DNA of 34,688 nucleotides from Bacteroidota bacterium (GTDB lineage: Bacteria > Bacteroidota > Bacteroidia > Chitinophagales > LD1). A model generated the notes under the pieces. The model did no database searches. It was not told the DNA's origin and was given only the letters and a program-made list of their open reading frames with translations. The stretch covers positions 220,673-255,360 of the forward strand of contig JAPLES010000002.1 in assembly GCA_026391075.1 (NCBI GenBank), given 5' to 3'. Made by a program: the position numbers and the translations under genes. Below, piece after piece: positions 6,375-34,688 of the stretch (position 1 is the stretch's first letter; every line of letters starts with the position of its first letter).

Positions 6375-6414
6375 ACCCGAAACCAAAATCACAGTCAGAA
6401 CATTCGATTGAAAA

Positions 6415-7188: not shown

Positions 7189-7233
7189 ACAAATTCTATG
7201 AAAAATATTTTTACAAACCGAAAACAGAAGACG

Positions 7234-7755: not shown

Positions 7756-7781
7756 GAAATTGAATTTCACTAAATAGGAAG

Positions 7782-7806
7782 AGGAGCCGCATGGCTCCTT
7801 TTTTTA
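7782..7806 (+). terminator. Rho-independent terminator of the ECF operon
   Basis: A perfect 7-bp stem AGGAGCC / GGCTCCT with a GCAT loop is followed by eight T in a row. It lies 27 nt after the stop of the exported sensor protein. The next gene's frame can be extended to an ATG inside this hairpin (7791), which is one reason to prefer the downstream start at 7845. Confidence 0.9.
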
Positions 7807-7844
7807 TTTCTCTTATTTATATCTTTAGCAGAAATATTTTTGAC

Positions 7845-9647: not shown

Positions 9648-9732
9648 ATTTCGCTTACAACTATTCAGCCGTAATTTACAATGCCGGCACATCAATGTTT
9701 GATTGCTTTGTGCTCAACAAAAACGAATGATT

Positions 9733-13084: not shown

Positions 13085-13099
13085 ACAATTGATTTTGTT

Positions 13100-18380: not shown

Positions 18381-19400
18381 ATGATAAAGAACCAATGGTA
18401 TTTGGTATGTTTTAATAATGAACTTAAAAAAGGGCAAATCCTGCGTAGGAAGATCATGGGTCAAGAAATAGTGGTATTTAGGACAGAATCCGGAAAAATT
18501 TCTGTTCTGGAAGACCGCTGTTGCCACAGAAATGTTCACCTATCCTTGGGTTACGTAAAGGGCGAGCACATCAAATGCGGTTATCATGGTTGGGAATTTG
18601 ATAGCACCGGAAAGTGCGCTCGTATACCGTCACTAAAATCGGATGATAATATACCCAAAGCGGCTTGCATAAAGCATTATGATGTTATACTTAAACATCA
18701 ATGTATTTGGGCGTATTTTGGAGATGAAGAGAAAAAGCCAGAGGCGGAGGTTCCCCCGTTTAATGAGTTGGACAAATGGCCAATGGTGTATAATTATCAC
18801 CTGGTTAAGGGAAGTTTAAAACTTGTTGCCGAAAGCCTTTTCGATTCGCATCATATTAACCATGTTCATCGCAAAAGCATAAAAACGCTGATGGGTAATC
18901 TGCATAATGAGCCCCCAGATTATCACCTATCCGTAACAGAGAAATCGCTCAATGGATGGTACTTACGCGATAACGAGAATAGCATTCTGGAAAAAATTTA
19001 TTTCGGATTTAAGGATAAAGTAGAAACGCATTTTGCTTTTTGGTTTCCGCACAGCAGTAAACTCGATTTGCGTTTCCCCGCTCATCTAACTATGCCCTCT
19101 CGGCAGATGGTTATTTATGAACACTTTTATCAGGTGGATGAGGACCACGTGATGATGATACAGATAACTTCCTGGCATAAAATATTTGAATACAATCCGT
19201 GGTTTGCTAAGTGGTTTATGTTACAAAAAAGTATGCGTATAGTTGAAGAGGACATAGCTTTTTTAGAAAGTAATAAGTACTGGCACGATAAAAAAAGGCT
19301 AAATGACCTTTTGATTAAACCGGATGAACTAACTTTTGAATTTACCAGGTTGTGGAATAAAAACGTAAAAGAGAATGATAAGAAAACAGATCAGGAATAG
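18381..19400 (+). CDS. Rieske non-heme iron oxygenase, probable carotenoid-tailoring enzyme
   Basis: From the ATG at 18381 the protein has 339 aa. The frame extends to a TTG at 18312, but the family normally begins as here with NQWYLVCF. The Rieske cluster motif is C47-x-H49-x16-C66-x2-H69. The mononuclear iron site is D155-x2-H158-x4-H163 in ESLFDSHHINHVH. This is the single-component oxygenase layout of vanillate/phthalate demethylases and of chlorophyllide a oxygenase-like enzymes. Its 3' end overlaps the next gene by 26 nt, so the two are probably translationally coupled. With no crtZ or crtW in the cluster, the likely job is hydroxylation or oxidation of a carotenoid end group. This is inferred from context. 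A separate reductase/ferredoxin would be needed and is not seen. Confidence 0.85.
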   Translation: MIKNQWYLVCFNNELKKGQILRRKIMGQEIVVFRTESGKISVLEDRCCHRNVHLSLGYVKGEHIKCGYHGWEFDSTGKCARIPSLKSDDNIPKAACIKHYDVILKHQCIWAYFGDEEKKPEAEVPPFNELDKWPMVYNYHLVKGSLKLVAESLFDSHHINHVHRKSIKTLMGNLHNEPPDYHLSVTEKSLNGWYLRDNENSILEKIYFGFKDKVETHFAFWFPHSSKLDLRFPAHLTMPSRQMVIYEHFYQVDEDHVMMIQITSWHKIFEYNPWFAKWFMLQKSMRIVEEDIAFLESNKYWHDKKRLNDLLIKPDELTFEFTRLWNKNVKENDKKTDQE

Positions 19401-20871
19401 GTTACAGAACTATAAAGTAAGTCTCAACTCGCCAGATCCTGAGCTTCCATTCAATATTTTAACCCCCAAAAAGGTGGCGGTTATTGGTGGTGGTTTGGCC
19501 GGAATCAGCACTGCGTGTAATTTAAGCGAACGTGGTTTTAAAGTTGATCTTTTTGAAAAAGAAAATTTTTTAGGTGGCAAAGTAGGAAGCTGGACTTTCG
19601 ATTCTAACGGTGAAAAACTTAGAGCGGAACACGGATTTCATGGTTTTTTTCGCCAGTATTATAATCTGCGAAGTTTTTTAAAGAAAATAGGTGCGTACCA
19701 TCACCTCATTCCCATTGATGATTACGTAATACTCTTCGACAAAAATAAGAAGCAGGGTTTTAAAGGGCTAGACAATACGCCAATATATAACATATGGGGT
19801 TTACGTAAATTCGGAATTGTTGATTGGAAAACATTTCTGAATCCTATGGCTTTGCCGTTTTTAAACCTTTTAAAATTTGATTCTGATACTACTTATAAAA
19901 AATTCGATTCAGAAAGTTTTGCTGATTTTGCCAGGCGCACCAGAATGAATGAAAAAATGCGTCTTGTGTTCAACTCTTTTTCCAGGGCTTTTTTTTCAGA
20001 GCCTGAAGACATGTCTATGGCAGAACTGATTAAAAGCTTCCATTTTTATTTTTTAAGTAATGAGGAAGGATTGCTTTACGATGTACTGGATGATGATTTT
20101 CAACTTAGTTTTATATCCTACTGTGAGACATTTCTTAAAAAGCATAACGCTAACATCCGTTATAAAGAGCCTGTAATTAGTTTTGAAAAAGCCAATGCCG
20201 GATTTTTGATAAATGGCGAAGGTTTTGATTATTGTGTACTGTGCACGGACGTAAAGCATACTAAACAACTGATTGCGGGTGCAAAAGGTTTTGAGCCATA
20301 TCCGGAAACTACACGTAAACTTGCCGGGCTTAAGCAATCTGGCAGATATGCTGTGTATAGGCTATGGACGGATAGATTTGAGGCTGATTCAACACTGCCC
20401 TTCTTTATTTTTACCGATAGGTTAAAATGCCTGGATAGTGTTACGCTCTATCATAAAATGGAAAAAGAATCAGCAGAATGGAGCGAAAAAAACAATGGCG
20501 GTATATTTGAACTTCATTCCTACTCTATACCGAAAAATATAATGGATGACAAGGAGCTTAAAACAGAATTATTGTTGGAGCTTTTCCATTATTTCCCGGA
20601 GTTGAAGGGTATGCATCATAAGCACGAATATTTTCAGCATAGAGATGACTTTCCCGGATTTCACACCGGTGAGCACGCATCGCGCCCCGAGGTTGAAACA
20701 GAAGTGCCTGGACTTTATTTAGCCGGTGATTGGGTAAAAATGGATAATTGCGCGATGTTAATGGAAGCAGCCTACACCTCAGGTGCAATGGCGGCAAATT
20801 ACATTATGCAAAACGAAGGGCTTAGAACAAACGTAATAGAAAGTGTGCCCGTAAAAGGCCTACTGGCTTAG
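19375..20871 (+). CDS. FAD-dependent carotenoid desaturase family protein, CrtU/CruE-like
   Basis: The 498-aa protein starts inside the Rieske gene (ATG at 19375). A ~30-residue leader precedes the FAD-binding motif VAVIGGGLAGISTACNLSER (34-53), then FEKENFLGGKVGSW. The block AEHGFHGFFRQYYNLRSFL (84-102) is the pattern of the plant-type desaturase branch that includes zeta-carotene desaturase and the aromatic-ring-forming enzymes CrtU (isorenieratene synthase) and CruE. The C-terminus has GLYLAGDWVKMDNCAMLMEA followed by a helix. In CrtU/CruE the beta-ring is desaturated and a methyl group shifts, giving an aromatic ring. Whether this protein does that, or another desaturation, cannot be settled here. 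Strong coupling to the Rieske gene suggests sequential action on one ring. It meets the methyltransferase gene tail to tail with a 4-nt overlap. Confidence 0.82.
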   Translation: MIRKQIRNRLQNYKVSLNSPDPELPFNILTPKKVAVIGGGLAGISTACNLSERGFKVDLFEKENFLGGKVGSWTFDSNGEKLRAEHGFHGFFRQYYNLRSFLKKIGAYHHLIPIDDYVILFDKNKKQGFKGLDNTPIYNIWGLRKFGIVDWKTFLNPMALPFLNLLKFDSDTTYKKFDSESFADFARRTRMNEKMRLVFNSFSRAFFSEPEDMSMAELIKSFHFYFLSNEEGLLYDVLDDDFQLSFISYCETFLKKHNANIRYKEPVISFEKANAGFLINGEGFDYCVLCTDVKHTKQLIAGAKGFEPYPETTRKLAGLKQSGRYAVYRLWTDRFEADSTLPFFIFTDRLKCLDSVTLYHKMEKESAEWSEKNNGGIFELHSYSIPKNIMDDKELKTELLLELFHYFPELKGMHHKHEYFQHRDDFPGFHTGEHASRPEVETEVPGLYLAGDWVKMDNCAMLMEAAYTSGAMAANYIMQNEGLRTNVIESVPVKGLLA

Positions 20872-21590
20872 GTTCTTTTAGTTCCAATGATTGAATACAA
20901 AATTGGTTTTCGCCAACTTGCGTGTGACTGTACTAATACGCTTTCAAAACCATTATTAATAAGCAAAAATTTTATTTCGTTCGGGCTAAGAAAAGTCAAC
21001 ACACTTTTTATCAGATAAGTGTAAATTTTTGAGCTTCGGGAAAGAAAGGTGCATAAGGGAACTATGAAGCCATAGCCTAAAATGAACCAATAAGCTTTAG
21101 TGAAAATATTTTTGCTCAAAGAATAATCATGTATGCATAATTTACCGTTCGGTTTAAGAATACGATAAATGCCTCTTATGGATTCTTGGTAATCAGGCAT
21201 ATTACGTAACCCGTATGCCATAAATACTGCATCAAAACTATTATCCGGAAAATCCAGATTCATCGCATCTTGAAGCAGGAAACAAATTTTGCCTGAATTA
21301 ATTTCTTCAGCGAATTTGTGTTTTGCCTCCTTCAACATTCCTTCGGAGTTGTCTACGCCTATTATGTAGCCGTTTGGTAGTTGTTTTAAACAAGCAAGGG
21401 TTGATTTACCAGTACCGCAACAAAGGTCAAGTAATTTTTCGTTTCCCTTAAGCTCCATTCTTTGTGCACTAGTATCCAAATCATCTTGATAGCCTTGACT
21501 CATTTTCGTAGCAAAATCATACGAAGAGGCAACTTTATTAAACTCTTTTGGAACCAATACTTTATTTAAAATTAATGGTGTTGAGGTCAT
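20868..21590 (-). CDS. UbiE/MenG-type SAM-dependent methyltransferase
   Basis: The 240-aa class I methyltransferase has SAM motif I in LLDLCCGTGKSTLACL (about 53-68), the acidic loop VDNSEGM (about 79-85), LQDAMNLDFPDNSFDAVFM and GLRNMPD (about 127-133), then LKPNGKLCIHDYS. These motifs match UbiE/MenG enzymes that methylate demethylmenaquinone or polyprenyl benzoquinols. It sits inside the carotenoid island, convergent with the CrtU-like gene (stop codons overlap) and 34 nt after the broken YceI gene. It could be an extra MenG or could methylate a carotenoid. I favour an isoprenoid substrate because of the neighbours, but the sequence does not prove it. Confidence 0.85.
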   Translation of the reverse strand: MTSTPLILNKVLVPKEFNKVASSYDFATKMSQGYQDDLDTSAQRMELKGNEKLLDLCCGTGKSTLACLKQLPNGYIIGVDNSEGMLKEAKHKFAEEINSGKICFLLQDAMNLDFPDNSFDAVFMAYGLRNMPDYQESIRGIYRILKPNGKLCIHDYSLSKNIFTKAYWFILGYGFIVPLCTFLSRSSKIYTYLIKSVLTFLSPNEIKFLLINNGFESVLVQSHASWRKPILYSIIGTKRT

Positions 21591-21624
21591 ATCATTTTTT
21601 TAAGGAGGTAAGATCGTCCCATGC

Positions 21625-22177
21625 TTAACCTATTTTACTGGTAGGAATATTGAAAGTTATCTGTATTTCGTTTCCTACCATTTTTGCTTTAATACCTGAG
21701 CCGTTTACGTGAAATTCTTCTCTGTTAATCTTAAAATCTCCCTTGAATATTCCTCTGCCATTTATTTCCGTATAACTGGCAGGTATCTTCATCAGTTTTT
21801 TTACACCGCATATTTCTAAATAACCAGTTAATAATATAAGAGCTATTTTCTTTGGTGATTTCTGTTGAAGCAAATTTAACGAATGGGAAGGAGGCAACAT
21901 TTAACCAATCCTGACTTTTTGCGTGAGTATCTTTAAGACTGTTGCCTGTATTAATTGTTGAAGCATCAACGGAAATATCTATTTTGGATTTCGTGTATTC
22001 GGAGGGGCTAAAATACACTTTGCCCTCAAGACCATAAAAAGTTCCGGAGGCGAGGCTGGTCGAAAATTTTAGCGTGTAATCTTTGTCAATACTTCGGTTT
22101 GCTTGTTCGTAAACAGCAAAGGCTGTGGTAAAAATAACAGATGACAGCACCGTAAAAGCAATTAATGTTTTTTTCAT
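21625..22177 (-). pseudogene. YceI-like polyisoprenoid-binding protein, frameshifted
   Basis: The 5' part (from the ATG at 22177) encodes a signal peptide (MKKTLIAFTVLSSVIFTTAFA) and the first half of a YceI lipocalin-like domain, ending at FPFVKFASTEI. At about 21830-21838, in an AT-rich run, the frame breaks. The other half (TGYLEICGVKKLMKIP ... GDFKINREEFHV) continues one frame over to the stop at 21625. One extra base, or two missing ones, explains the shift. YceI proteins carry isoprenoid chains in the periplasm and often accompany quinone or carotenoid genes, which fits this location and the UbiE-like gene 34 nt downstream. It may be a true mutation or a sequencing error; both halves look well conserved, so the event is recent. 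Confidence 0.8.
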
Positions 22178-22208
22178 ATTCTACTCATTTTTAATTACGA
22201 GGTTTAAA

Positions 22209-22216
22209 CAAAATTA
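22209..22216 (-). promoter_or_regulatory. Possible -7 promoter element for yceI/methyltransferase unit
   Basis: The minus strand reads TAATTTTG, an exact TAnnTTTG match 32 nt before the YceI start. No good TTG (-33) box is found at the usual distance. The 275-nt divergent gap between YceI and crtD is very AT-rich and must also hold the crtD-side promoter, for which I see no exact match. Confidence 0.3.
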
Positions 22217-22452
22217 CCATTACAAGGTTTTATAATATTATTTATGTGGCTATTCAAAGTTAATACTTGTGTTGTATATTATTCCTTAAAGTCTTTTCTA
22301 AGTAATTTTAACTTATACCGTAATAACGCATAAATAGAGGGCAAAATTATTTGATTTTTTATTCAAAATGCGTTATTTAAGTCTGAGTATGTTTTGGTTT
22401 CTGGTCTCATAACTCCATAGATATTATACCACTATAAACTGTAGCAAAAAAA

Positions 22453-23934
22453 TTGAGCATTTCGAAAAAGATAAATTCCCACGTTTGTGTTATTGGCAGC
22501 GGGGTTGGCGGGTTGGCTGCTGCAGCACGTTTAGCGGCAAGAGGTATGCAAGTTAGCGTATTTGAAAAAAATGATGCGTACGGGGGCAAGGTGAGTCCAA
22601 TTAGGACTAATGGATATTTATGGGGTTTTGGGGCATCTTTATTTACATTACCCGAATTGCTTGATGAGTTATTCGTCAGTTGTCGACAGTCACCATCAGA
22701 CTATTATAGTTATACACAAATAGACCCGATTTGCCGCTACTTCTTTCCGGACGGAACTATTATTAATGCATTTGCGCAGCCCGATTTATTTGCCGCAGAA
22801 GTAGCCTCAAAAACAGGCGAACCGAGCGCGCATATACTATCCTTTTTAAAGGAAGCAGAACGAAAATACGAACTCACAAAAGATATATTTCTTTTCCACT
22901 CACTTCATAAATTTTCTACGTATACTAACCGTAAAGCAGTACATTCTTTGTTCAACCTAAGTTCTCTGGGTATATTGAAAAAGATGAATGCCGTTAATGA
23001 AAATTATTTTTCCGATGCCCGCATAGTGCAGCTTTTTAACCGCTATGCGACTTATAACGGATCTAATCCATATGTAGCACCATCAACCCTTAATGTAATA
23101 GCTCATCTGGAGTACAATAAGGGAGCATATTATTTGCAAGGAGGAATGCCCGCACTTACGCAAACCCTTTATCAACTTTGCCTTAATATGGGTGTTAAAT
23201 TTAAATTTAATGCAATGGTAAATGCCATTCATATTACAGATAACCGGGTAACAGGTATTAATGTGGGAAATACTAATTACGCTGCCGATGTAGTTGTAAG
23301 CAATATGGACATTGTATACACTTACCGTAATTTGATGCCTGAGCTACCTGAGCCCAAACGCTTCTTAGCGGGAGAAAAGTCAAGTTCGGCAATTATATTT
23401 TACTGGGGCATTAAACATACATTTTCAAATCTTGAATTACACAATATTCTTTTTAGCGGAAATTATAAAGCAGAATTTGATTGTATTACAAACAAAAAAA
23501 TAGTTTATGATGACCCGACTATTTATATCTACATCAGTTCCAAAATGGATAAGGCACATGCTCCAGAGGGTTGCGAAAATTGGTTTGTTATGGTTAACGC
23601 CCCACATGATTGTGGTCAGGATTGGTCGCAAATAATTACGGAGGCACGAAAAAATATTTTAAAAAAATTAAAAATTGAAGCTGGTTTAGATATTGAAAGC
23701 TTGATAAGTTGTGAAATAGTAAATCATCCGGGTACTATTCAAGAAAAAACGCTTTCACACCTTGGCGCACTTTATGGCAACAGCTCTAATACTATCTTGT
23801 CAGCGTTTTTGCGCCATCCAAATTTCTCACAAAGTATTAAAGGGCTTTATTTTTCAGGTGGTAGTGTACATCCGGGCGGTGGCGTTCCCCTTTGTTTACT
23901 TTCAGCAAAAATTGTAGATGAACTGGTTGACTAA
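22453..23934 (+). CDS. crtD: Carotenoid desaturase CrtD (1'-hydroxy-carotenoid 3',4'-desaturase)
   Basis: CrtI-family FAD oxidoreductase of 493 aa. The FAD motif is VCVIGSGVGGLAAAARLAAR (11-30), followed by FEKNDAYGGKV. The C-terminal dinucleotide region is GLYFSGGSVHPGGGVPLCLL. I call it CrtD and not phytoene desaturase because it overlaps cruF by 17 nt, the usual crtD-cruF pair in Bacteroidota, and because a second CrtI-type gene (24603) is a better phytoene desaturase. CrtD introduces the 3',4' double bond into the hydrated open end. The start is unusual: a stop codon lies 15-17 nt upstream in frame and no ATG exists before the FAD motif, so a TTG at 22453 must be used. Confidence 0.8.
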   Translation: MSISKKINSHVCVIGSGVGGLAAAARLAARGMQVSVFEKNDAYGGKVSPIRTNGYLWGFGASLFTLPELLDELFVSCRQSPSDYYSYTQIDPICRYFFPDGTIINAFAQPDLFAAEVASKTGEPSAHILSFLKEAERKYELTKDIFLFHSLHKFSTYTNRKAVHSLFNLSSLGILKKMNAVNENYFSDARIVQLFNRYATYNGSNPYVAPSTLNVIAHLEYNKGAYYLQGGMPALTQTLYQLCLNMGVKFKFNAMVNAIHITDNRVTGINVGNTNYAADVVVSNMDIVYTYRNLMPELPEPKRFLAGEKSSSAIIFYWGIKHTFSNLELHNILFSGNYKAEFDCITNKKIVYDDPTIYIYISSKMDKAHAPEGCENWFVMVNAPHDCGQDWSQIITEARKNILKKLKIEAGLDIESLISCEIVNHPGTIQEKTLSHLGALYGNSSNTILSAFLRHPNFSQSIKGLYFSGGSVHPGGGVPLCLLSAKIVDELVD

Positions 23935-24559
23935 ATTTAGAATTTCTGCGTTTTTAATCATGGTATTCAATGCGGTAGGTTGTATTGGCCTCAATAGCCA
24001 CTGTTGCCGCAATTACTTTGAAAGACTTTCTGCAGCTAATCTTCTGTTATCATTTGCCTTAGTGCTTTGGTGTCATCATCCGGTTTTTAATAAGAAGAAA
24101 TTATTTGCATTTATACTATTAGTTTGGGTATTTGGAATTTTGGTGGAAGCTATCGGTGTTAGCACCGGTGTAGTTTTTGGTAAATATCATTATACAAGTG
24201 CGCTGGGTATAGCCATTTTCAAAGTGCCGCTGATTATTGGTTTAAATTGGGTTCTACTTACTTATGCAACCGGTGTGACTTTTTCCACTTTGCGCATTCC
24301 TTTTTGGGTAAAAGTAAATGCTGGTGCTTTACTTATGGTATTGTGCGATATTTTGCTCGAGAAATTTGCTATTAAGCATAACTTTTGGGTATGGGAATTA
24401 ACAGGCCATCCTCCTCTTTTGAATTTTTTTGCTTGGTGGGTTTTCTCTTTGTTTACCATCACATTGTTTAGCTGGTTGATACCGGACACTCGGAATAAAC
24501 TGGCCGTATTTTATTTTATGGCACTATTGCTTTTTCTATTGACCGATTTTCTGCTATGA
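23918..24559 (+). CDS. cruF: Carotenoid 1',2'-hydratase CruF (DUF422)
   Basis: Integral membrane protein of 213 aa with about six or seven hydrophobic helices. The family pattern is visible as EAIGVSTGVVFGKYHYTSAL (about 69-88), then KVPLIIGLNWVLLTYA, and later DILLEKFAIKHNFWVWE. CruF adds water across the 1',2' double bond of the acyclic psi end of gamma-carotene-like molecules, giving the tertiary hydroxyl found in myxol, saproxanthin and flexixanthin. Its start lies inside the end of crtD (17-nt overlap), indicating coupled translation. Confidence 0.87.
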   Translation: MNWLTKFRISAFLIMVFNAVGCIGLNSHCCRNYFERLSAANLLLSFALVLWCHHPVFNKKKLFAFILLVWVFGILVEAIGVSTGVVFGKYHYTSALGIAIFKVPLIIGLNWVLLTYATGVTFSTLRIPFWVKVNAGALLMVLCDILLEKFAIKHNFWVWELTGHPPLLNFFAWWVFSLFTITLFSWLIPDTRNKLAVFYFMALLLFLLTDFLL

Positions 24560-24602
24560 ACATTTTATTCCGTTTATTGTTTCTATATTGGAATTCTGAG
24601 TT

Positions 24603-26093
24603 ATGTCCGATAGAAAAAAAATTGTAATTATAGGGAGCGGTTTTGCCGGACTTTCTGCCTCATGTTTTCTTTCAAAAGAAGGCCATGAAGTTACGCTTCT
24701 GGAAAAAAATGATCAGCCCGGGGGTCGAGCCAGGGTTTGGCAAAAAGATGGTTTTACTTTTGACATGGGACCAAGTTGGTATTGGATGCCGGAAGTTTTT
24801 GAGCAGTTTTTTAATCATTTTGGCAAATCTACCAGCGACTTTTACGAACTCAAGCGTCTAAATCCATCTTACCGAATTTACTATGAAGGTACCGAAAAAA
24901 TTGATGTTTCGGCAGATTTTAATGAGTTGGTAAATTTATTTGAACTGAAAGAAAAAGGTAGCGGTAAAAAATTAAAACAGTTTCTGGCCGAAGCAGAGTA
25001 CAAATACAACACGGCCATGTCCGATTATGTAAATCGAATTTCGGATAAGGTAACTGAGTTTTTTGACTTTAAACTCATCGGCAAAAGTTTTCAACTTCAT
25101 TTGTTGCAATCGCTGCGAAAGGATATAAGATCTAAGTTCAAACATCCCCATCTGGTGAGTATGCTTGAGTTCCCATCCCTCTTTTTAGGGTCTACCCCGG
25201 ATAATACTCCAGCCATGTATACCATGATGAATTATGCCGATATAATGCTGGGCACCTGGTATCCGATGGGAGGCATGAATCGTATAGTACAGGCCATGGT
25301 TGCAATAGCTGAAAACAATGGGGTTGATATAAAACTGAATCAGGAAGTAACCAAAATTGAAATCCTTAAAGGGAGGGCAAAAAAGGTTTATACCCAGGAC
25401 AAAGTTTATATAGCTGATACGGTAATTGCCGGAAGCGATTATCACCATACAGAACAAACTCTTTTAGAGTTGCCCCACCGTACGTATGATGAAAAATACT
25501 GGAACAGCAGAGTGATGTCTCCATCTTCCTTACTTTTTTATTTAGGGGTAGATAAAAAAATTCAAAACCTCTTACATCATAATCTTTTTTTCGATGAAGA
25601 TTTTGATAAGCATGCCTCGGAAATTTATCATAAACCGCAATGGCCTTCCGCTCCGCTGTTTTATGTTTCGGCTCCTTCAAAAACCGATGCCACCGTTGCA
25701 CCTGATGGTATGGAAAACCTATTTATGCTAATGCCACTCGCTCCGGGTATTGAAGATAATGACCTAATGCGCGAAAAATACTTCGAACTAATGCTTCAAA
25801 GACTTGAAGAAAAAACGGGAGAAACTTTGAGAAATAACATTGTGATAAAAAGAAGTTATTGCATCAACGATTTTAAAACTGACTATAACAGTTACAAAGG
25901 CAATGCTTATGGCCTCGCCAATATCCTTTCACAAACGGCTATTTGGAAGCCCAAGATGAAATCGCCTAAAGTGAATAATCTATTTTATACCGGACAACTC
26001 ACCGTACCCGGTCCTGGTGTGCCACCCTCAATAATATCCGGAAAGATAGTAGCCGCGGAAGTAAGCAGACAAATTAAAGCTAAGTTATTGTAG
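24603..26093 (+). CDS. crtI: Phytoene desaturase CrtI
   Basis: The 496-aa FAD-dependent enzyme turns phytoene into lycopene. The N-terminal FAD motif is IVIIGSGFAGLSASCFL (7-23), then LLEKNDQPGGRARVW. The bacterial CrtI block FDMGPSWYWMPEVF (54-67) is present. The C-terminus has the typical NLFYTGQLTVPGPGVPPSII. Two CrtI-type genes in one cluster usually divide the work between phytoene desaturation (this one, next to crtB) and 3',4'-desaturation (22453). It is followed by crtB after 12 nt. Confidence 0.92.
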   Translation: MSDRKKIVIIGSGFAGLSASCFLSKEGHEVTLLEKNDQPGGRARVWQKDGFTFDMGPSWYWMPEVFEQFFNHFGKSTSDFYELKRLNPSYRIYYEGTEKIDVSADFNELVNLFELKEKGSGKKLKQFLAEAEYKYNTAMSDYVNRISDKVTEFFDFKLIGKSFQLHLLQSLRKDIRSKFKHPHLVSMLEFPSLFLGSTPDNTPAMYTMMNYADIMLGTWYPMGGMNRIVQAMVAIAENNGVDIKLNQEVTKIEILKGRAKKVYTQDKVYIADTVIAGSDYHHTEQTLLELPHRTYDEKYWNSRVMSPSSLLFYLGVDKKIQNLLHHNLFFDEDFDKHASEIYHKPQWPSAPLFYVSAPSKTDATVAPDGMENLFMLMPLAPGIEDNDLMREKYFELMLQRLEEKTGETLRNNIVIKRSYCINDFKTDYNSYKGNAYGLANILSQTAIWKPKMKSPKVNNLFYTGQLTVPGPGVPPSIISGKIVAAEVSRQIKAKLL

Positions 26094-26105
26094 GGAATAA
26101 ATTTA

Positions 26106-26960
26106 ATGTACATGTTCGAACTATTTGAAAAAACTGCTGCCGATTGTAGCAAAAACGTAACTCAAACATACAGCACTTCGTTTTCGCTCGGTATTAGAAC
26201 GCTTCATTCACGTTTTTATGCCCCTATTTATGGTATATACGGTATGGTGCGCTATGCCGATGAAATAGTAGATACCTTTCATAATTATGATAAAAAATAT
26301 TTGCTCGAAAAATTTAAACGAGATACTTATGAGGCCATTGAAAGTGGTATCAGTCTTAACCCAATATTATTCTCTTTTCAAAAAGTGGTAAACGAGTTTG
26401 GTATTCCGATGGATTTGATTGAGTCCTTTTTTATAAGTATGGAAACAGATTTATTCAAAGTGTCGTACGATAAAGTAGATTACCAGGAATATATCTATGG
26501 TTCTGCCGAGGTAGTAGGGTTAATGTGCTTAAAAGTATTTGCCGAAGGAGATGATGAGTTGTATCATCGGCTTATTCAACCGGCTAAAGCTTTAGGTGCA
26601 GCTTTTCAAAAAGTGAATTTTCTTCGTGATATGAACAGTGATGCTAAAGATCGGGGGCGAGTATATTTTCCGGGAATAGATTTTGATAATTTTGAAGACA
26701 TAGCCAAAAAACAAATTGAGCGTGAGGTGGCAAATGATTTTCATGCGGCTTACAATGGTATACTCAATTTGCCGGCTGGTGCCAGAGAAGGTGTGTTACT
26801 GGCTTATAATTACTATCAGGCTTTGTTTCATAAAATACAAGGGGTTTCTGTAGAGCAATTAAAAAAATCAAGAATTAGAGTGCCGGACTTCAGAAAACTT
26901 TTAATACTGTTTAGAAGCGTGGCCGGAAGACCATTCAGGTATAACCTATTAGGATCATGA
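26106..26960 (+). CDS. crtB: Phytoene synthase CrtB
   Basis: Condenses two geranylgeranyl diphosphates head to head into phytoene. The 284-aa protein has the first Asp-rich motif ADEIVD (51-56) and the second NFLRDMNSDAKDRGRVYFP (171-189), both needed to bind Mg-diphosphate. The opening FSLGIRTL and VRYADEIVDTFH are typical of Bacteroidota CrtB. The start could be either of two ATGs two codons apart (26106 or 26112). It overlaps the lycopene cyclase gene by 4 nt (ATGA). A GGPP synthase gene (crtE) is not in the window. Confidence 0.95.
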   Translation: MYMFELFEKTAADCSKNVTQTYSTSFSLGIRTLHSRFYAPIYGIYGMVRYADEIVDTFHNYDKKYLLEKFKRDTYEAIESGISLNPILFSFQKVVNEFGIPMDLIESFFISMETDLFKVSYDKVDYQEYIYGSAEVVGLMCLKVFAEGDDELYHRLIQPAKALGAAFQKVNFLRDMNSDAKDRGRVYFPGIDFDNFEDIAKKQIEREVANDFHAAYNGILNLPAGAREGVLLAYNYYQALFHKIQGVSVEQLKKSRIRVPDFRKLLILFRSVAGRPFRYNLLGS

Positions 26961-27724
26961 TTCTAACACTGTTTAAGAGTGAATCATTTTCAAGATTTAC
27001 ATACCTCGCTCTTGATGTGTTTACGCTCTTGTTTCCTTTGATTTTTTCTTTCGATACCAAAGTTCACTTTTTCAAGCGCTGGCGATATCTATTCCCCGCT
27101 ATATTTTTCACTGCGTTTTTCTTTATCATTTGGGATTACTTTAAAACTAAATATGGCGTGTGGAGTTTTAATGACCAGTACATCCTTGGTTATCGGTTAG
27201 CCGGTATGCCGGTGGAAGAATATTTATTTTTTTTTGTGGTTCCTTACGCATGTATTTTTATATATGATGTACTGAGATTTTATCTTAAACCAAGATCATC
27301 GCCCAAAAGCATCACTTACATTGTGCAAATAATAGGTTTAGCAATGCTGTTCTCATCTTTCTTCTTTATTAACCGCGCATATACTTTTGCAGTGTTATTT
27401 ATACTTGGTTTATTACTGCCAATTTCGGCAGCAATTTTAACAGCTGAAAAACTTGTCCGGTTCATTCAGATGTACCTGCTTAGCTTTTTGCCCATGTTTG
27501 TAGTCAACGGTTATTTAACCGCTTTACCAGTGGTAATTTATAACAATGCGCATAATATAGGTTATCGGTTAGGTACTATTCCTATAGAAGATTTTTTGTA
27601 TAGTGCAATTTTGTTGCTAATGAATGTGGCAGTGTATGAATGGTTCCAAATACAGAATAATACAAATCCTAATATACGATTGACTTGGAAATCTAAATTT
27701 AGAAATCTGGTGAAATGGAGGTAA
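26957..27724 (+). CDS. crtYcd: Lycopene cyclase, fused CrtYc-CrtYd type
   Basis: Membrane protein of 255 aa built from two homologous halves. Each carries the catalytic signature: YRLAGMPVEEYLFFFVVPYA (about 76-95) and YRLGTIPIEDFLYSAILL (about 203-220). The enzyme closes the ends of lycopene into beta-ionone rings. In actinobacteria the halves are often separate crtYc and crtYd genes; in Bacteroidota they are fused, as here. Overlap with crtB by ATGA suggests coupled translation. Whether one or both ends are cyclised is not readable; CruF and CrtD downstream of it in the pathway imply that at least part of the flux stays monocyclic. Confidence 0.92.
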   Translation: MILTLFKSESFSRFTYLALDVFTLLFPLIFSFDTKVHFFKRWRYLFPAIFFTAFFFIIWDYFKTKYGVWSFNDQYILGYRLAGMPVEEYLFFFVVPYACIFIYDVLRFYLKPRSSPKSITYIVQIIGLAMLFSSFFFINRAYTFAVLFILGLLLPISAAILTAEKLVRFIQMYLLSFLPMFVVNGYLTALPVVIYNNAHNIGYRLGTIPIEDFLYSAILLLMNVAVYEWFQIQNNTNPNIRLTWKSKFRNLVKWR

Positions 27725-27866
27725 GCAGAAAGTAACCTATACTGAAAAACAGTTTGCCTGCAAAGTAAGTTATACGGAAAGCAAAATTTTTTGATAGAGT
27801 TACGTTCCCTTAAAATAACTGTCTATTGAAAATATCCGCGCATTAAAGTTAGAATACGAAGCAGCT

Positions 27867-28028
27867 ATGTTAGAGCTGGATAGTGAGTTACGCGAAGTTA
27901 TGAGCAAAAGTTTGTCATTGTTTTTAAAACAATACTCAAATTGGTTTGTTACTAATCTAAGTTGTGGGTTGAAATCAATCGAACAGAACTTGGAGTTTCC
28001 GAAAATCCTTAAGAGTAGGAAAAATTAA
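27867..28028 (+). CDS. Small ORF before the rhodopsin gene, possible remnant
   Basis: The crtYcd-rhodopsin gap (27725-28039, 315 nt) contains one coding-like frame. From the ATG at 27867 it gives 53 aa (MLELDSELREVMSKSLSLFL ... FPKILKSRKN), ending 11 nt before the rhodopsin ATG. The frame is open 17 codons further up (ENIRALKLEYEAAM) to a TAA but with no ATG. The first part is a charged amphipathic helix. It may be the 3' end of a lost gene, or a short leader peptide coupled to rhodopsin translation. No family recognised. Confidence 0.3.
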   Translation: MLELDSELREVMSKSLSLFLKQYSNWFVTNLSCGLKSIEQNLEFPKILKSRKN

Positions 28029-28039
28029 AAAACAAACAA

Positions 28040-28759
28040 ATGGAACATTTAAAAATTGCCAGCGACAATTACGTTGCGTTCACGTTCTTCATCGGAACAA
28101 TGGCCATGATGGCCGCATCAGTATTTTTCTTTTTTGAAGTAAATAATACTTCACCTAAATGGCGAACCTCTGTTTTAGTTTCAGGAATCATTACCTTTAT
28201 TGCAGCTGTGCATTATTATTACATGCGGGGCTACAATCTTGAAACAGGAGATTCTCCAACATTTTTCCGTTATGTTGATTGGATATTAACCGTTCCATTA
28301 ATGTGTGTGGAGTTCTATCTAATTACGAAAAAAGCAGGCGCTAAAATCGGTTTATTGTGGAAACTAATTGCGGCATCTTTAGTTATGCTAATTACTGGTT
28401 ATTTTGGAGAGACAATCGATCGAGGTAACAGTGCTATTTGGGGAGCCATATCAGGTTTAGCTTATTTCTACATTGTTTATTTAATTTGGTTTGGCGAAGT
28501 TGCCAAACTTGCGCAAACAGCAGGTGCACAGGTTGCAAAAGCAACTCGAACTCTTGGATGGTTTGTTTTAGTAGGCTGGGCAATTTACCCTCTCGGATAT
28601 ATTTTGGGAACACCTGGAGGTTTCGCTGGTATTCAATTGGTTTCAAACCCAGAAGCAGCGGCTCATTCAATGGACATTGCCTATAACATCGCAGATGTTA
28701 TTAATAAGGTAGGATTTGGGTTGGTTATATACGCTTTAAGTAGGTCGGCTGAAGATTAA
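28040..28759 (+). CDS. Green-absorbing proteorhodopsin, DTE proton pump with antenna-type fenestration
   Basis: Seven-helix retinal protein of 239 aa that pumps protons out on illumination. Helix C (RYVDWILTVPLMCVE) holds D80, T84 and E91, equal to D97/T101/E108 of green proteorhodopsin, so it is a DTE outward H+ pump. The spectral tuning position is M88, as in green-absorbing Bacteroidota proteins. H58 matches the PR H75 that partners the counterion. The retinal lysine is K223 (ADVINKVGFG). Aligning helix E (AIWGAISGLAYFYIVYLIW) to bacteriorhodopsin puts G135 at Trp138, and at a Phe in green PR. This is the small residue that lets xanthorhodopsin bind a carotenoid antenna. It follows the carotenoid operon on the same strand. 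Blh, which cleaves beta-carotene to retinal, is not in the window. Confidence 0.95.
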   Translation: MEHLKIASDNYVAFTFFIGTMAMMAASVFFFFEVNNTSPKWRTSVLVSGIITFIAAVHYYYMRGYNLETGDSPTFFRYVDWILTVPLMCVEFYLITKKAGAKIGLLWKLIAASLVMLITGYFGETIDRGNSAIWGAISGLAYFYIVYLIWFGEVAKLAQTAGAQVAKATRTLGWFVLVGWAIYPLGYILGTPGGFAGIQLVSNPEAAAHSMDIAYNIADVINKVGFGLVIYALSRSAED

Positions 28760-29410: not shown

Positions 29411-29839
29411 ATGATAGTAGTTGTGGAAGATTCAAATGCAGAAGCTGAAATTACAACAATGTCGCTAAGAGCGGTAGCTCCTTTATCTGAAATCACTCGA
29501 TTAAGAGATGGGCGGGAACTCTTGGATTTTATCGATTGCAATGGAAAGTATTCCTCGAGAAATTGCGCAGATAATCAAAAAGTGCGATTTATTCTTTTGG
29601 ATATTAATATGCCTCGAATGTCAGGTATTGAAGCCTTATCTGCCATTAAAAAGAATGAAAAATCGAAAAATATACCGGTAGTGATGTTTTCTTCCTCTGA
29701 TGTAGAAAAAGATGTAGAAAAGTGTTTTAATCTAGGCGCCAATAGTTTTGTTAAAAAGCCGGTAAGTTTTAGTGACTTCAGAATTTCAATTGATAAAATA
29801 GCTAATTACTGGTTAGATTTTAACCTAAGCCTCTCCTGA
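29411..29839 (+). CDS. Single-domain response regulator (CheY/Rcp-like)
   Basis: The 142-aa receiver domain has no output domain. The acidic pair is E6-D7, the phosphoacceptor is D64 in FILLDINMPRMSG, the conserved Ser is S94-S96 in VMFSSSD, and the Lys is K116 before P117. The insert before D64 resembles that of phytochrome-type Rcp1 regulators. It converges with the H-NOX-linked histidine kinase, whose stop is 31 nt away. It could be that kinase's phosphorylation partner, acting through protein contacts. This is inferred from proximity. Confidence 0.9.
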   Translation: MIVVVEDSNAEAEITTMSLRAVAPLSEITRLRDGRELLDFIDCNGKYSSRNCADNQKVRFILLDINMPRMSGIEALSAIKKNEKSKNIPVVMFSSSDVEKDVEKCFNLGANSFVKKPVSFSDFRISIDKIANYWLDFNLSLS

Positions 29840-29870
29840 TTTATTAAAGAAGCTGTTTATTGATAATAAG

Positions 29871-31859
29871 TTAGGCAGCTACAACTTCCAAGGTAAAATT
29901 AAATTTTGTTCCTTTCCCAAGATCACTTTTCGCCCAAATATCCCCTCCGTGTTTTTCTATAATTGATTTCACTATTGATAGCCCAATTCCGGTACCTTCA
30001 AATTCTTCTGTTGAATGACCCCGTTGGAAGGGTTTAAATAACCGCTCTGCAAAACTCTCATCAAAGCCGGCTCCATTATCAGCTACGAAAAATGATGATG
30101 AAGAAGATTCATCAAATTCCGTTCCAATCGTTATTTGTGGATTTTCATTTTTGCTGGAATATTTCAATGCATTCGAAATCAAATTCTCTAATGCCTGCCT
30201 TAATAGGCCGGGATCTGCCATCACCGTTGGCATGTCCATTATTTTAACATCCGCTTTCTTGTAATTTTCTTGCTTTAGATATTCCGCTGAGATAACTTCT
30301 GCAAGTGCCTTTACATCCACTCTCTTTTTTTGAATTTCTAATTTGCTGAGTTTTGAAAGATTTAATAAATCTGAAATGATACTATTCATCCTTATGGTAT
30401 ACTGCGATATTATTTTAAGGAATTCCATAGAACGCTCAGGGTCATTCGGATATCCTTTGCCTTCAATCAGCATAGTAGCAAAACTATTTATTAATCGAAG
30501 TGGCGAGCGCAAATCATGCGATACGGTATATACAAAAGTTTCTAAATCATCATTCTTCGCTTTCAGTTCTTTTGTTCGTACCGCAATTTTTAAATCTAAC
30601 GAATTGTTTATTTCTTCAAGCTTTGACTGGGCTAACTTAATATCGCTGATATCGTGAAAGTTCTTAACAATACCATTAATGGCTGGGTTTTCAAACTGTT
30701 TAGTAGCTGTTAATTCAACCCATTTCCAGCTACCATCTTTATGCTTCATTCTAACATCAAGCCTGCGATAGGTGCCGGTTTTATCTCCCATCAACTCACG
30801 CAACGAATCCTCTACTTTTTTTTGGTCATCTTCATGGTAATAAAGTTTGTATTTTTTTCCTGTAATCTCATCTTCCTTGTAACCTAATATGAACTCAAGC
30901 GCTGGGCTTACATAGATAATATCTCTATCTTTATTGCTTACGGCTATTACTTCCTTACTATTTTCTACGAGAGCTCTGAATCTTTTTTCGCTGGCATTAA
31001 TCTGTTCTTCCGCCAGCTTTTGTTCAGTAATGTCTTGTACAATTCCATATAGCCCAATGGGCTTACCTTCTTTATTAAATTTGTATATTATCTTTTGTGA
31101 TACAAAGGCAGACGTACCGTCTGCTTTAATTATTCTTGCGGTTATCGAAACAGGACTCAGATCTTCTTTCGAAACTTCTATTTTATTTTTTACAAAATCC
31201 TGGTAATCCGGATGTATCATGGCTAACCACTCTTCATAGCTGTGCCGATTATTGTTATTATGCAGCCCATATATATCGCAGCAGCCTGACGAAAAAACTA
31301 ATTTTATTTCGTTGAAATTAAAATACCAGATTCCCATTTTTGCTAATTCCATAGCCTCATGCAATAAAAACTCTCTTTCCTGCAGCTCTTTCCTTTTGTC
31401 TTTTTCCTTTTCAGAATAATCTTGGGCTTCGGCCATACTGCGCTTCATGCCTTCCATCAAGAAAAGAAATTCTATTAATGAGTCGTGTTGCGGCAGATCC
31501 TCAATGCTTAATCCATATTTTTTTAGAGAGTTGTCGCTGTCATTAAGTATGGGGTAACCCACATACAATTTTTTGTCTTTTGCTATTTCAATCCCTATCA
31601 TCTTCATTTCAAGACCTAAATCCTTCGAAACCATGATAAAGAGTGAATGTAAATCTACTACCTCTGTAAGTATGGAATGAACCGAACTTTTTAGACTGAA
31701 GTGGTCATAGAGATTGCTACCTTCTATTATTTGGCTAAATACAATTTTAAAAGACCTGCCAAATTGTATAAATCGGTAGTCTTTGTCTAACAAGAAATAA
31801 AAGGGGCATATTTTATTGATGGCCTCCTCATTTAGAACAATGTCAATCATTTTTACCAA
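29871..31859 (-). CDS. HNOBA-PAS-PAS sensor histidine kinase, partner of H-NOX
   Basis: The soluble 662-aa kinase has no membrane helix. Residues ~8-135 match the H-NOX-associated (HNOBA) domain: PFYFLLDKDYRFIQFGRSF at 19-37, and KKYGLSIEDLPQHDSLIEFL near 113-132. A coiled segment (~135-165) leads to PAS 1 (~165-283) and PAS 2 (~290-410). HisKA has the phospho-His H448 in VSHDLRSPLR. The ATPase domain has the N box NLISNALKYS (559-568), G1 DNGAGFD (594-600) and G2 GTGIGLS (622-628). The annotated start overlaps the H-NOX stop by 7 nt; an ATG three codons in (31850) would avoid the overlap. In studied systems NO-bound H-NOX inhibits the associated kinase. No receiver domain is fused. Confidence 0.93.
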   Translation of the reverse strand: MVKMIDIVLNEEAINKICPFYFLLDKDYRFIQFGRSFKIVFSQIIEGSNLYDHFSLKSSVHSILTEVVDLHSLFIMVSKDLGLEMKMIGIEIAKDKKLYVGYPILNDSDNSLKKYGLSIEDLPQHDSLIEFLFLMEGMKRSMAEAQDYSEKEKDKRKELQEREFLLHEAMELAKMGIWYFNFNEIKLVFSSGCCDIYGLHNNNNRHSYEEWLAMIHPDYQDFVKNKIEVSKEDLSPVSITARIIKADGTSAFVSQKIIYKFNKEGKPIGLYGIVQDITEQKLAEEQINASEKRFRALVENSKEVIAVSNKDRDIIYVSPALEFILGYKEDEITGKKYKLYYHEDDQKKVEDSLRELMGDKTGTYRRLDVRMKHKDGSWKWVELTATKQFENPAINGIVKNFHDISDIKLAQSKLEEINNSLDLKIAVRTKELKAKNDDLETFVYTVSHDLRSPLRLINSFATMLIEGKGYPNDPERSMEFLKIISQYTIRMNSIISDLLNLSKLSKLEIQKKRVDVKALAEVISAEYLKQENYKKADVKIMDMPTVMADPGLLRQALENLISNALKYSSKNENPQITIGTEFDESSSSSFFVADNGAGFDESFAERLFKPFQRGHSTEEFEGTGIGLSIVKSIIEKHGGDIWAKSDLGKGTKFNFTLEVVAA

Positions 31860-32549: not shown

Positions 32550-34688
32550 TTATTTTTTTATAGATAAAGAAACCCTACGGGGAATGAATTCGTCAATCTG
32601 CTGCTGCATCCGTTCGTTTTGTTTCTGAAGCACTTCTATCATTTGCTGTTGCTCCTGCATGGCTTTTACCATAGGCGATAGCAAATCGTTGTAGCGCACG
32701 CCATACATGCCTGCATCGTCTTTACTGATGATACCATTGTTGGTGGCACCCGACTTAGTCAAGGCTTCGTCCAGCTCCTGGGCTATAAAACCATACTCGG
32801 TCTTTTTGCTTTCATCGTTTAGGCGGTAGTAGCTAACGGGGCGCAGGGTATTAATAAAGCCCAGGCCCAGGCTGCTGTTTTGTATATCGGCTTTCCATCT
32901 TCTATCGCTGGTGGTGGTTAAGGCCACCTGTGCCTCGAAAACAGTAACTGATGTATTGCCTATGCGCACCTTATTGCTGGCATTTACCACTGCCCCATAG
33001 CCTATAACCGTGGCATTGGTAAGTGCACCTGAATACACATCGGCATTAGTGCCCAAGGCAGTGTTGTTGGATCCATCGGTGTTAGATTGAAGCGCACTCC
33101 CTCCGCTGGCGGTGTTCTCGCTTCCTGTGGTGTTGTTCAAAAGCGCATAAGATCCGCTGGCGGTGTTGCCGTATCCTGTGGTGTTGGTAATAAGCGCCCA
33201 TGATCCGCTGGCGGTGTTGTAGTTTCCTGTGGTGTTGGAAGAAAGCGCATTCAATCCGCTGGCGGTGTTCTCGTATCCTGTGGTGTTGGAATAAAGCGCA
33301 TTCAATCCGCTGGCGGTGTTCTCGTTTCCTGTGGTGTTGGAATAAAGCGCCTGCACTCCGCTGGCGGTGTTCCTGACTCCTGTGGTGTTGTTAAAAAGCG
33401 CAGATTCTCCGCTGGCGGTGTTAAAGTCTCCTGTGGTGTTGGAATAAAGCGCATCCACTCCGCTGGCGGTGTTCTTGACTCCTGTGTTGTTGGAAGAAAG
33501 CGCAGATACTCCGCTGGCGGTGTTCTTGACTCCTGTGGTGTTGGAATAAAGCGCATTCAATCCGCTGGCGGTGTTGTCATATCCTGTGGTGTTGGAATAA
33601 AGCGCCTGCACTCCGCTGGCGGTGTTTTGGTTTCCTATGGTGTTGTAAATAAGTGCAGAATTTCCGCTGGCGGTGTTGTAGTTTCCTGTGGTGTTGGAAG
33701 AAAGCGCAGATACTCCGCTGGCCGTGTTAGAGTATCCTGTGGTGTTGGAACGAAGTGCATTCAATCCGCTGGCGGTGTTGTCAAATCCTGTGGTGTTGTA
33801 ATAAAGCGCATTCGCTCCGCTGGCGGTGTTGTCAAATCCTGTGGTGTTGTAATTAAGCGCAGATTCTCCGATGGCGGTGTTAGCGTATCCTGTGGTGTTG
33901 GAACGAAGTGCATCTCTTCCGATGGCGGTGTTGGAGTTTCCTGTGGTGTTGAAATAAAGCGCATAATATCCGCTGGCGGTGTTGTCAAATCCTGTGGTGT
34001 TGTTACCAAGCGCCCACACTCCGCTGGCGGTGTTAGCGTATCCTGTGGTGTTGTTAGCAAGCGCAGTCTTTCCGCTGGCGGTGTTTTCGTATCCAGTGGT
34101 GTTGGAAGAAAGCGCACTCGCTCCGCTGGCGGTGTTAGCGTATCCTGTGGTGTTGGAAGAAAGCGCAGTCGCTCCGCTGGCGGTGTTAGCGTATCCTGTG
34201 GTGTTGGAATAAAGCGCTCTCTGGCCGATTCCTGTATTATAATTGTTTCCTGAATTGGAATTGCCTGATTGGTAGCCAAAGAAGGTATTACCTGCTGTGC
34301 CTACATCTATTCTTCCGGCTTTCTGGTTATTCACTCTTATAGTAAAAGGAATGCTATCGGTGGTGCCAATGAAGTTTGTGCCATCCACCGTACCTGCATT
34401 ACCGGTTAGCGACCAGGCCGTTAAAGCACCGTTGGCACCTGTGGCGCCTGTGGTTCCATTAGTTCCGGTTACTCCTTTGGCGCCTGTAGTGCCTGCTAAA
34501 CCTTGTAAGCCTGTTGGGCCGGTTACGCCTACACCGGTAGCTCCTGTAGCCCCATTTGTTCCGTTTGTCCCATTGGCACCTGTTGCTCCGGTTGCACCGT
34601 TTGTTCCATTAGCACCAGTTGCCCCTGTAGCTCCCGTTGCACCAGTATTTCCGTTCGTTCCATTAGCACCTGTTGGTCCTGTTGGCCC
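32550..34688 (-). CDS. Repetitive surface protein: Gly-X-Y repeats, 17-residue repeats, S74 chaperone domain (5' end missing)
   Basis: The frame is open from the stop at 32550 to the window edge, 712 codons; the start lies beyond 34688. The first ~85 visible residues are collagen-like GxY triplets ([19 protein letters not shown] and similar). After a linker ending in [14 protein letters not shown] come 23 copies of a 17-residue unit of the form NTASGxxALxSNTTGxx. The C-terminal part has the Peptidase_S74/endosialidase chaperone motif ([12 protein letters not shown], then [19 protein letters not shown] and [10 protein letters not shown]), then a Gln-rich coiled coil. S74 domains help trimerise fibre proteins and then cleave themselves off. 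Trimeric fibre or adhesin is the best guess. An ATG at 34388 is internal and not the true start. Confidence 0.85.
33066..34238 (-). repeat. Tandem array of 23 x 51-bp coding repeats
   Basis: Exactly 1173 nt, 23 units of 51 bp, each encoding 17 residues. The strictly kept core is NTA(S/I)G-x2-AL-x2-N(T/N)(T/I/D)G-x2. The variable positions are the two after G, the two after AL and the two at the end. Most units share the + strand string CCGCTGGCGGTGTT and the string CCTGTGGTGTTG. The first unit reads NTGIG and the last NTDG, so the ends have drifted while the middle is homogeneous, as expected from unequal crossover. The pattern resembles the head repeats of trimeric adhesins that stack as a beta-roll. 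Confidence 0.92.

Follow-up and report, generated by a model that had tools for sequence, protein, structure and literature searches.

The ORF calls in the window, i.e., the whole 34,688-nucleotide stretch of DNA analysed, agree with the first-pass annotation: a carotenoid cluster at 18381–27724 is followed downstream, as that annotation had claimed, by a rhodopsin gene at 28040–28759. The features are as follows.

18381–19400, + strand: Rieske non-heme iron oxygenase, 339 aa (PF00355; CxH..CxxH and D-x2-H-x4-H motifs)
19375–20871, + strand: CrtU-type carotenoid ring desaturase/methyl-shift enzyme (putative; aromatase homologue), without internal Rieske domain (homology, tree)
20868–21590, − strand: UbiE-like methyltransferase (PF01209; under NCBIfam cut-offs; synteny)
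21625–22177, − strand: YceI-family gene, frameshift-interrupted (PF04264 on the first part; the rest continues in another frame)
22453–23934, + strand: CrtD, 1-hydroxycarotenoid 3,4-desaturase (NF042421, 586.6 bits, cut-off 500)
23918–24559, + strand: CruF-like carotenoid 1′-hydratase (PF04240, 87.3 bits, cut-off 25; under NCBIfam CruF cut-offs)
24603–26093, + strand: CrtI-type phytoene desaturase (NF058655, 741.7 bits, cut-off 640)
26106–26960, + strand: phytoene synthase CrtB (PF00494)
26957–27724, + strand: CarR-domain (CrtYcd-type) lycopene cyclase (PF18916 and TIGR03462)
27972–28039, + strand: pre-rhodopsin stretch aligning with relatives that have no crt genes beside their rhodopsin (blastn)
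28040–28759, + strand: fenestrated proteorhodopsin, DTE, K223, with G135, Y187, T191 and P192 at the carotenoid site (PF01036, alignments)

The end of the Rieske ORF overlaps the start of the CrtU gene by 26 bases. The rhodopsin gene lies on the crt strand, only 315 bases 3′ of the lycopene cyclase gene (crtY), so co-expression is possible. The UbiE-like methyltransferase gene and the frame-broken YceI gene, both on the − strand, interrupt the carotenoid set; by synteny, many actinomycetes and some relatives likewise have a UbiE-like gene adjoining CrtU. The gene functions are putative and follow from homology of ~32–43% to named relatives outside the clade. Gene families, synteny, phylogeny, the rhodopsin transfer and the rhodopsin site residues were established by the analysis.

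The CrtU-type protein shows full-length homology to CrtU proteins of known context and groups with them, with identities of 32–34% to CrtU relatives from Streptomyces, Thiodictyon and Calothrix; among the matches listed, its best segment reaches 40% against a Chlorobiaceae CrtU. The top NCBIfam matches of this FAD protein are the HpnE and ZDS models, both far under cut-off, which would suit another relative of the plant-type desaturases (e.g., HpnE- or ZDS-like) and a beta ring that is kept and then modified by the Rieske oxygenase. However, in an unrooted tree the protein lies on the same side of a 100/99 split as actinobacterial CrtU, and the two have the GFHxFFxQYYN motif and their genomic context in common, which makes that alternative highly improbable. 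Judged from its sequence, a CrtU-type enzyme probably makes the carotenoid ring aromatic. The tree leaves out a Binatia CrtU (L122), an insert-less form dropped by the motif filter, and another locus (L134) has no readable CrtU motif. An internal Rieske domain, present in seven tree rows, is absent from the window CrtU. The homologous CrtU proteins of aromatic-carotenoid Actinomycetota and Chlorobiaceae are often encoded beside crtB, crtI and crtY and have a linked Rieske protein, and those of Actinomycetota are insert-less like the one in the window. The window CrtU, however, has another kind of Rieske oxygenase as its partner, and CruF and CrtD accompany it for a monocyclic product.

The two Rieske motifs were found in all 14 relatives checked. 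Of 149 genomes, 24 possess CrtU, and 23 of these also have the window-type Rieske (E ≤ 1e-40), which none of the genomes lacking CrtU contains; the CrtU of the one exception (G054) is cut at a contig edge. The two genes adjoin on one contig in 21 of the 23 genomes and in all 16 loci fetched, while in G140 and G135 they lie on separate contigs. The open-access PMC literature on CrtU, CruE and aromatic carotenoids yielded no report of such a Bacteroidota CrtU–Rieske pair. The arrangement resembles the neighbouring aromatase and Rieske oxygenase of CruE–CruH, the cyanobacterial synechoxanthin pathway with CruH as its Rieske oxygenase. Identity of the window protein with CruH was rejected, as the Rieske tree puts the window type and the CruE-adjacent cyanobacterial proteins in separate clades. 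The window also differs from that pathway in that its CrtU has no Rieske insert and only one aryl end is expected. A Streptomyces DUF5914 row stands on a very long branch of this tree, and its position is thus unsure.

Named CrtU loci (L118–L161, from 80 listed of 180 confirmed matches) usually show either a Rieske domain inside CrtU, as in Chlorobiaceae, cyanobacteria and one purple sulfur bacterium (the Thiodictyon form), or a Rieske oxygenase gene nearby. Among the matches listed, 27 of the 38 insert-less loci read have such a gene, and the genes fall into three Rieske groups, a pattern expected if the Rieske protein were the working partner of a split aromatase, replacing the built-in domain during aromatisation rather than tailoring the ring afterwards. 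A search of 395 genomes of the phylum, with six family f49 genomes of weak matches set aside, points the same way: the window-type Rieske (E ≤ 1e-40) is found in all three genomes with a full-length insert-less CrtU and in none of the 77 genomes of family f38, whose CrtU carries the internal Rieske motif in 27 of 27 read. However, among the matches listed, 11 of the 38 insert-less loci have no Rieske gene nearby, and two of five insert-bearing loci have a separate one as well; the window type is wholly absent from a Spirochaetales genome. Moreover, the separate Rieske proteins retain the oxygenase mononuclear-iron motif, which is absent around the insert in all five cases, and Krugel is said to have found in 1999 that Streptomyces CrtU works alone in E. 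coli. A role in aromatisation itself is therefore rather unlikely, and oxidation of the ring is the role that we assign tentatively to the Rieske oxygenase below.

Alignment of the rhodopsin confirmed the DTE proton pump (D80, T84, E91, K223) and the glycine at the bacteriorhodopsin Trp138 position that the first-pass annotation had described; this glycine is Gly135, and W134–Gly135 stands opposite W–W of 4jq6. Because all 25 rhodopsins aligned from elsewhere in the order (24 genomes; a weak PF01036 match, L026, was left out) carry the same glycine, it is no marker of this locus. On helix F, the carotenoid-site residues are Y187 and the polar T191, with P192 at the next position; the residues linked to carotenoid binding in Table 2 of an earlier study (Gly, Tyr and a polar one) are thus all retained (PMC12308411). 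The nearest structure by both sequence and fold is NM-R1 (PDB 9jou), a zeaxanthin-bound proteorhodopsin whose carotenoid site has the same four residues, i.e., Gly, Tyr, Thr and Pro (57% identity, 224 aligned residues and Z 22.0 in a fold look-up with a predicted model). The AlphaFold2 model reached a pLDDT of 47.7 from the single sequence and 62.9 with one viral-contig relative, the latter good enough for fold look-up only. The antenna rhodopsins Kin4B8, KR1 and EinA29G6 likewise keep Gly and Tyr and have a polar residue at 208, but bear Tyr, Asp or Glu at 209 where the window rhodopsin has Pro (PMC12308411). Membership in the salinixanthin-type xanthorhodopsin group, which has Met/Ala at 208/209 instead of Thr/Pro, was rejected, as the window rhodopsin is by E-value much closer to proteorhodopsins.

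The rhodopsin is 84–89% identical to those of G112, G109, G043, G032 and G097, where RpoB is only 73–78% identical; judged from these identities, it is horizontally acquired. Directly before the gene, at 27972–28039, 68 bases align with G112 and 39 to about 48 with five other relatives (blastn). None of the 29 other genomes of the same family contains a rhodopsin, 11 of the same 29 contain CrtU, and rhodopsin-free members of the family have the crt module as well. No blh lies beside the rhodopsin within the window, and neither PF15461 (blh) nor PF03055 (RPE65-type) matched in the genome (98.12% complete), with positives elsewhere, although a blh may sit in an assembly gap. If blh is missing, retinal would have to come from outside or from some unknown enzyme. 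A rhodopsin genome without a known retinal gene has a precedent in Aurantimicrobium minutum, which lacks blh and diox1 but has C50 carotenoid genes rather than an aryl C40 cluster (PMC7734400).

Based on these results, we favour, with a probability of about 0.64, two separately evolved modules that lie side by side, i.e., an aryl carotenoid pathway and an acquired fenestrated proteorhodopsin; their chemistry, the pigment structure, the retinal supply and any pigment–pump pairing are what we infer. In the first module, which recurs in the family, CrtB and CrtI would form lycopene, the CarR-type cyclase would close one ring, and the open end would be hydrated by CruF and desaturated by CrtD. CrtU would then render the ring aromatic, the overlapping Rieske oxygenase would oxidise the aryl ring or one ring methyl, and a methyl group may be added to the product by the UbiE-like protein. 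Given this CrtU-type aromatase homologue and the Rieske oxygenase, the pigment would be a monocyclic aryl carotenoid, in keeping with the earlier claim of an unusually modified ring, and would by default serve to protect the membrane. The second module, the horizontally acquired pump, could hold a xanthophyll ring as NM-R1 does.

The first-pass annotation had further proposed that pump and antenna pigment are both products of this locus, the ring of a monocyclic carotenoid entering the Gly135 window and passing energy to retinal. Gly135, Y187 and T191 as in carotenoid-binding rhodopsins, the zeaxanthin-bound NM-R1 structure and the short distance to crtY on the same strand favour such a dedicated unit, as do a fuller island in the same order (G066, see below) and salinixanthin, which has no second ring and yet serves xanthorhodopsin (PMC12308411). 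However, the fenestration glycine is clade-wide, and crt homologues lie beside the rhodopsin at just two of 25 other loci (G066 and G088), many of them on short contigs. Rhodopsin and CrtU occur in 25 and 24 of the 149 genomes, respectively, and together in six, i.e., no more often than by chance (p 0.19). Rings known to function are beta rings with a 3-hydroxy or 4-keto group, unlike the one predicted here, and Kin4B8 does not bind carotenoids whose ring is of the epsilon type or bears a 4-hydroxy group. With no retinal gene found in the genome and no crtZ-like gene in the window, the claim is not supported, and we regard a dedicated unit as unlikely. The missing crtZ-like gene also speaks against zeaxanthin, the pigment bound by NM-R1, as the carotenoid made here. 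The aryl pigment of the cluster as antenna of the pump is only a possibility. Its most specific form, in which an oxidised aryl carotenoid (e.g., a phenolic 3-hydroxy-aryl product of CrtU and the Rieske oxygenase) sits in the Gly135 window with its oxygen on Thr191, is a long shot. If true, an aromatic-ring carotenoid would serve a rhodopsin through an antenna born when a mobile opsin landed beside an existing pigment cluster; no such pairing is known to us from earlier work.

The crtZ-like protein of G066 has no PF04116 or NCBIfam match, so a PF04116 search of the window genome could miss a crtZ. That search gave ten matches, and six loci scanned with NCBIfam and two frame-split places read contained none at a carotenoid cut-off. 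When the G066 protein was compared with the window and 15 loci of the window's own genome, no convincing match appeared (best E 2.6e-4, L221). As for a CrtW-type 4-ketolase, the best CrtW-model score among the six PF00487 proteins of the genome was 28.6 bits against an NCBIfam cut-off of 350, and none of the six reached a carotenoid cut-off.

Aromatic carotenoids in rocks are read as traces of sulfur-using phototrophs. It has been cautioned that CrtU may be more widespread (PMC9342728), and a CrtU–Rieske–CruF–CrtD cluster in Bacteroidota other than Chlorobiaceae would add one source, with an expected monocyclic skeleton like that of chlorobactene. The pattern of fused or nearby CrtU and Rieske also makes the partner role of the Rieske protein testable.

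Adjacency of rhodopsin and crt genes is rare but not unique, and such islands are a real arrangement in the order. In G088, crtD adjoins the rhodopsin gene; in G066 (L275), a crtZ-like gene, crtY, blh, rhodopsin and crtD lie together. The G066 island resembles the window in combining a fenestrated rhodopsin with neighbouring crtD and CarR-type crtY genes, but has blh and the crtZ-like gene and no CrtU match, where the window has CrtU and the Rieske oxygenase instead. An antenna system takes more than a fenestration glycine with a crt cluster close by, and, owing to its crtZ-like gene and blh, the G066 island is the better antenna candidate in the order.

The rhodopsin of the window (28040-28759, + strand) carries D80, T84 and E91 of the DTE proton-pump motif together with K223 and G135, the latter at the site of bacteriorhodopsin Trp138, and the other genes from which the first-pass annotation proposed a dedicated pump and antenna-pigment locus are also present within 18381-28759, as ORFs and profile matches. 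The best solved match of this rhodopsin is proteorhodopsin 9jou/9jov, with 9jou titled as zeaxanthin-bound NM-R1 (Z 22.0, rmsd 3.1, 224 residues aligned, 57% identity, using a weak query model with pLDDT 62.9). For Kin4B8, passages of PMC12308411 report that replacing Gly153 by a bulkier residue prevents carotenoid binding, that Tyr204 is conserved among known binders, and that the 3-hydroxy ring depends critically on Ser208, a position occupied by Thr in both KR1 and EinA29G6. The carotenoid-site residues of the window rhodopsin are G135, Y187, T191 and P192, and all four (Gly, Tyr, Thr, Pro) are identical in NM-R1. Because these residues match those of carotenoid binders and NM-R1, the fenestration is likely open by homology. 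The fenestration Gly does not set this protein apart, since all 25 other rhodopsins in the alignment, drawn from 24 genomes of the order, have it; of these, L024 is partial, and L010 and L025 do not belong to the DTE type. A viral-classed contig (IMGVR_UViG_3300046323_000337) also encodes a fenestrated proteorhodopsin, 62% identical to that of the window.

The window occupies a contig end in a 3.6 Mb genome (91 contigs, 98.12% complete), and its aryl module and adjacent genes are as follows.

18381-19400, + strand: Rieske oxygenase gene
19375-20871, + strand: CrtU-type, FAD desaturase-like gene
20868-21590, - strand: UbiE-like methyltransferase gene adjoining CrtU
21625-22177, - strand: frameshift-broken YceI-family gene between the aryl module and crtD, either a pseudogene or an assembly error

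The window CrtU is 32-34% identical to Streptomyces, Candidatus Thiodictyon and Calothrix proteins, and the Streptomyces match lies in a crt cluster, which we take to be that of isorenieratene. An unrooted tree has a 100/99 split: on one side stand the window CrtU and its counterparts from Bacteroidota, Melioribacteraceae, Spirochaetales and actinobacteria, on the other the Rieske-domain-containing CrtU of Chlorobiaceae, Thiodictyon and cyanobacteria. The window Rieske gene overlaps CrtU and encodes the oxygenase iron motif; among NCBIfam models its product scores highest against SdmA, a sterol-methyl oxidase (107.8 of 600 bits, well under the cut-off), a hint that it may oxidize a ring methyl. 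The carotenoid predicted from these genes would be monocyclic, its one ring aromatic and carrying extra oxygen and its open end modified by CruF and CrtD, in agreement with the unusually modified ring that the first-pass annotation proposed.

Rieske and CrtU genes adjoin in 16/16 loci compared, several of which also carry crtI, crtB, crtY, crtD, cruF or a UbiE-like gene, and 0/16 carry a rhodopsin. Among the matches listed (80 of 180 confirmed), 44 named CrtU loci were analysed: 5 have an internal Rieske domain, 38 lack it and 1 was unread, while a separate Rieske gene lies nearby in 29 (27/38 insert-less and 2/5 insert-bearing; 23 of the DUF5914, 3 of the window and 3 of the cyanobacterial kind), and a UbiE-like gene in 19, all Actinomycetota. 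Across 395 phylum genomes, the window-type Rieske occurs in 3/3 genomes with a full-length insert-less CrtU and in 0/77 genomes of family f38, whose CrtU has the internal Rieske motif in 27/27 loci read, one identical to the Chlorobiaceae record. By these counts Rieske and CrtU are linked, and both the insert-less and the insert-bearing loci include exceptions; the Rieske protein may act either in aromatisation itself or through lineage-wise recruitment to decorate aryl rings. According to PMC9342728, relatives of CrtU are found outside phototrophs, and biomarkers based on aromatic carotenoids may be tied less closely to particular taxa than had been assumed; the portion of PMC9560492 consulted places these pigments in a sulfur-bacteria and cyanobacteria context, and CrtU was left aside in the CrtI analysis excerpted from PMC2889829. 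No description of a Bacteroidota CrtU-Rieske pair was found in the open-access PMC literature.

By sequence comparison, the pump itself is mobile. PF01036 scores over cut-off in 25/149 same-order genomes and in 0/29 other same-family genomes; the window rhodopsin is 84.0-89.1% identical to those of G112, G109, G043, G032 and G097 (RpoB, 72.6-77.6%), and DNA homology with close relatives spans the gene plus 39 to 68 bases upstream. The retinal-forming gene blh (PF15461) is found in 18/25 rhodopsin genomes and 0 genomes without rhodopsin among the 149, including 3/5 of the close-rhodopsin relatives (in the other two, G112 and G043, the rhodopsins lie near contig ends). Neither PF15461 nor PF03055 (RPE65-type) has a match in the window genome, with positive search controls for the latter, and two near-complete same-order genomes, G124 and G129, likewise have a DTE rhodopsin with no PF15461 match. 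The pump need not be dead, since PMC7734400 shows that retinal can be present in a strain that has neither blh nor diox1.

Whether the window pigment serves the window pump was weighed against the gene surroundings of all 25 other rhodopsins, many on short contigs. Homologues of window crt genes lie beside the rhodopsin at 2/25 loci, with crtD in G088 and crtY and crtD in G066, the latter within an island.

5857-10595 of the G066 locus: crtZ-like gene, crtY, blh, fenestrated rhodopsin and crtD together

The G066 crtZ-like protein (153 aa) has no PF04116 match and no other match at E<=1e-6 among 287 loci; its histidine pattern is presumably that of CrtZ. CrtU has no match in G066. By gene content, this island would hold what known 3-hydroxy antennas need and makes a stronger candidate for an antenna island than the window does. 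An antenna role for the window pigment draws on this precedent and on the carotenoid-site residues of the pump, but it is unlikely: rhodopsin and CrtU co-occur in six of 149 genomes, four in one genus (p 0.19), so the association behind a dedicated pair was not found; neither a crtZ-like gene of the G066 type nor blh or another retinal gene was found in the window; and the predicted ring differs from those of known antenna pigments. Pigment binding need not bring energy transfer either, as stated in a section of PMC13093654. Less likely still, with a probability of roughly 0.1, is the narrower reading in which an aryl carotenoid of this cluster is the antenna of the window pump.

Immediately 3' of the rhodopsin are a response regulator and a sensor histidine kinase, the latter assigned by sequence (29411-31859). 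Elsewhere in the window, steroid 5-alpha-reductase-like and 3-beta-HSD/epimerase-like genes adjoin (12326-14104, - strand), and a 51-base repeat of about 23 copies (33057-34217) lies within an ORF with a Peptidase_S74 domain.
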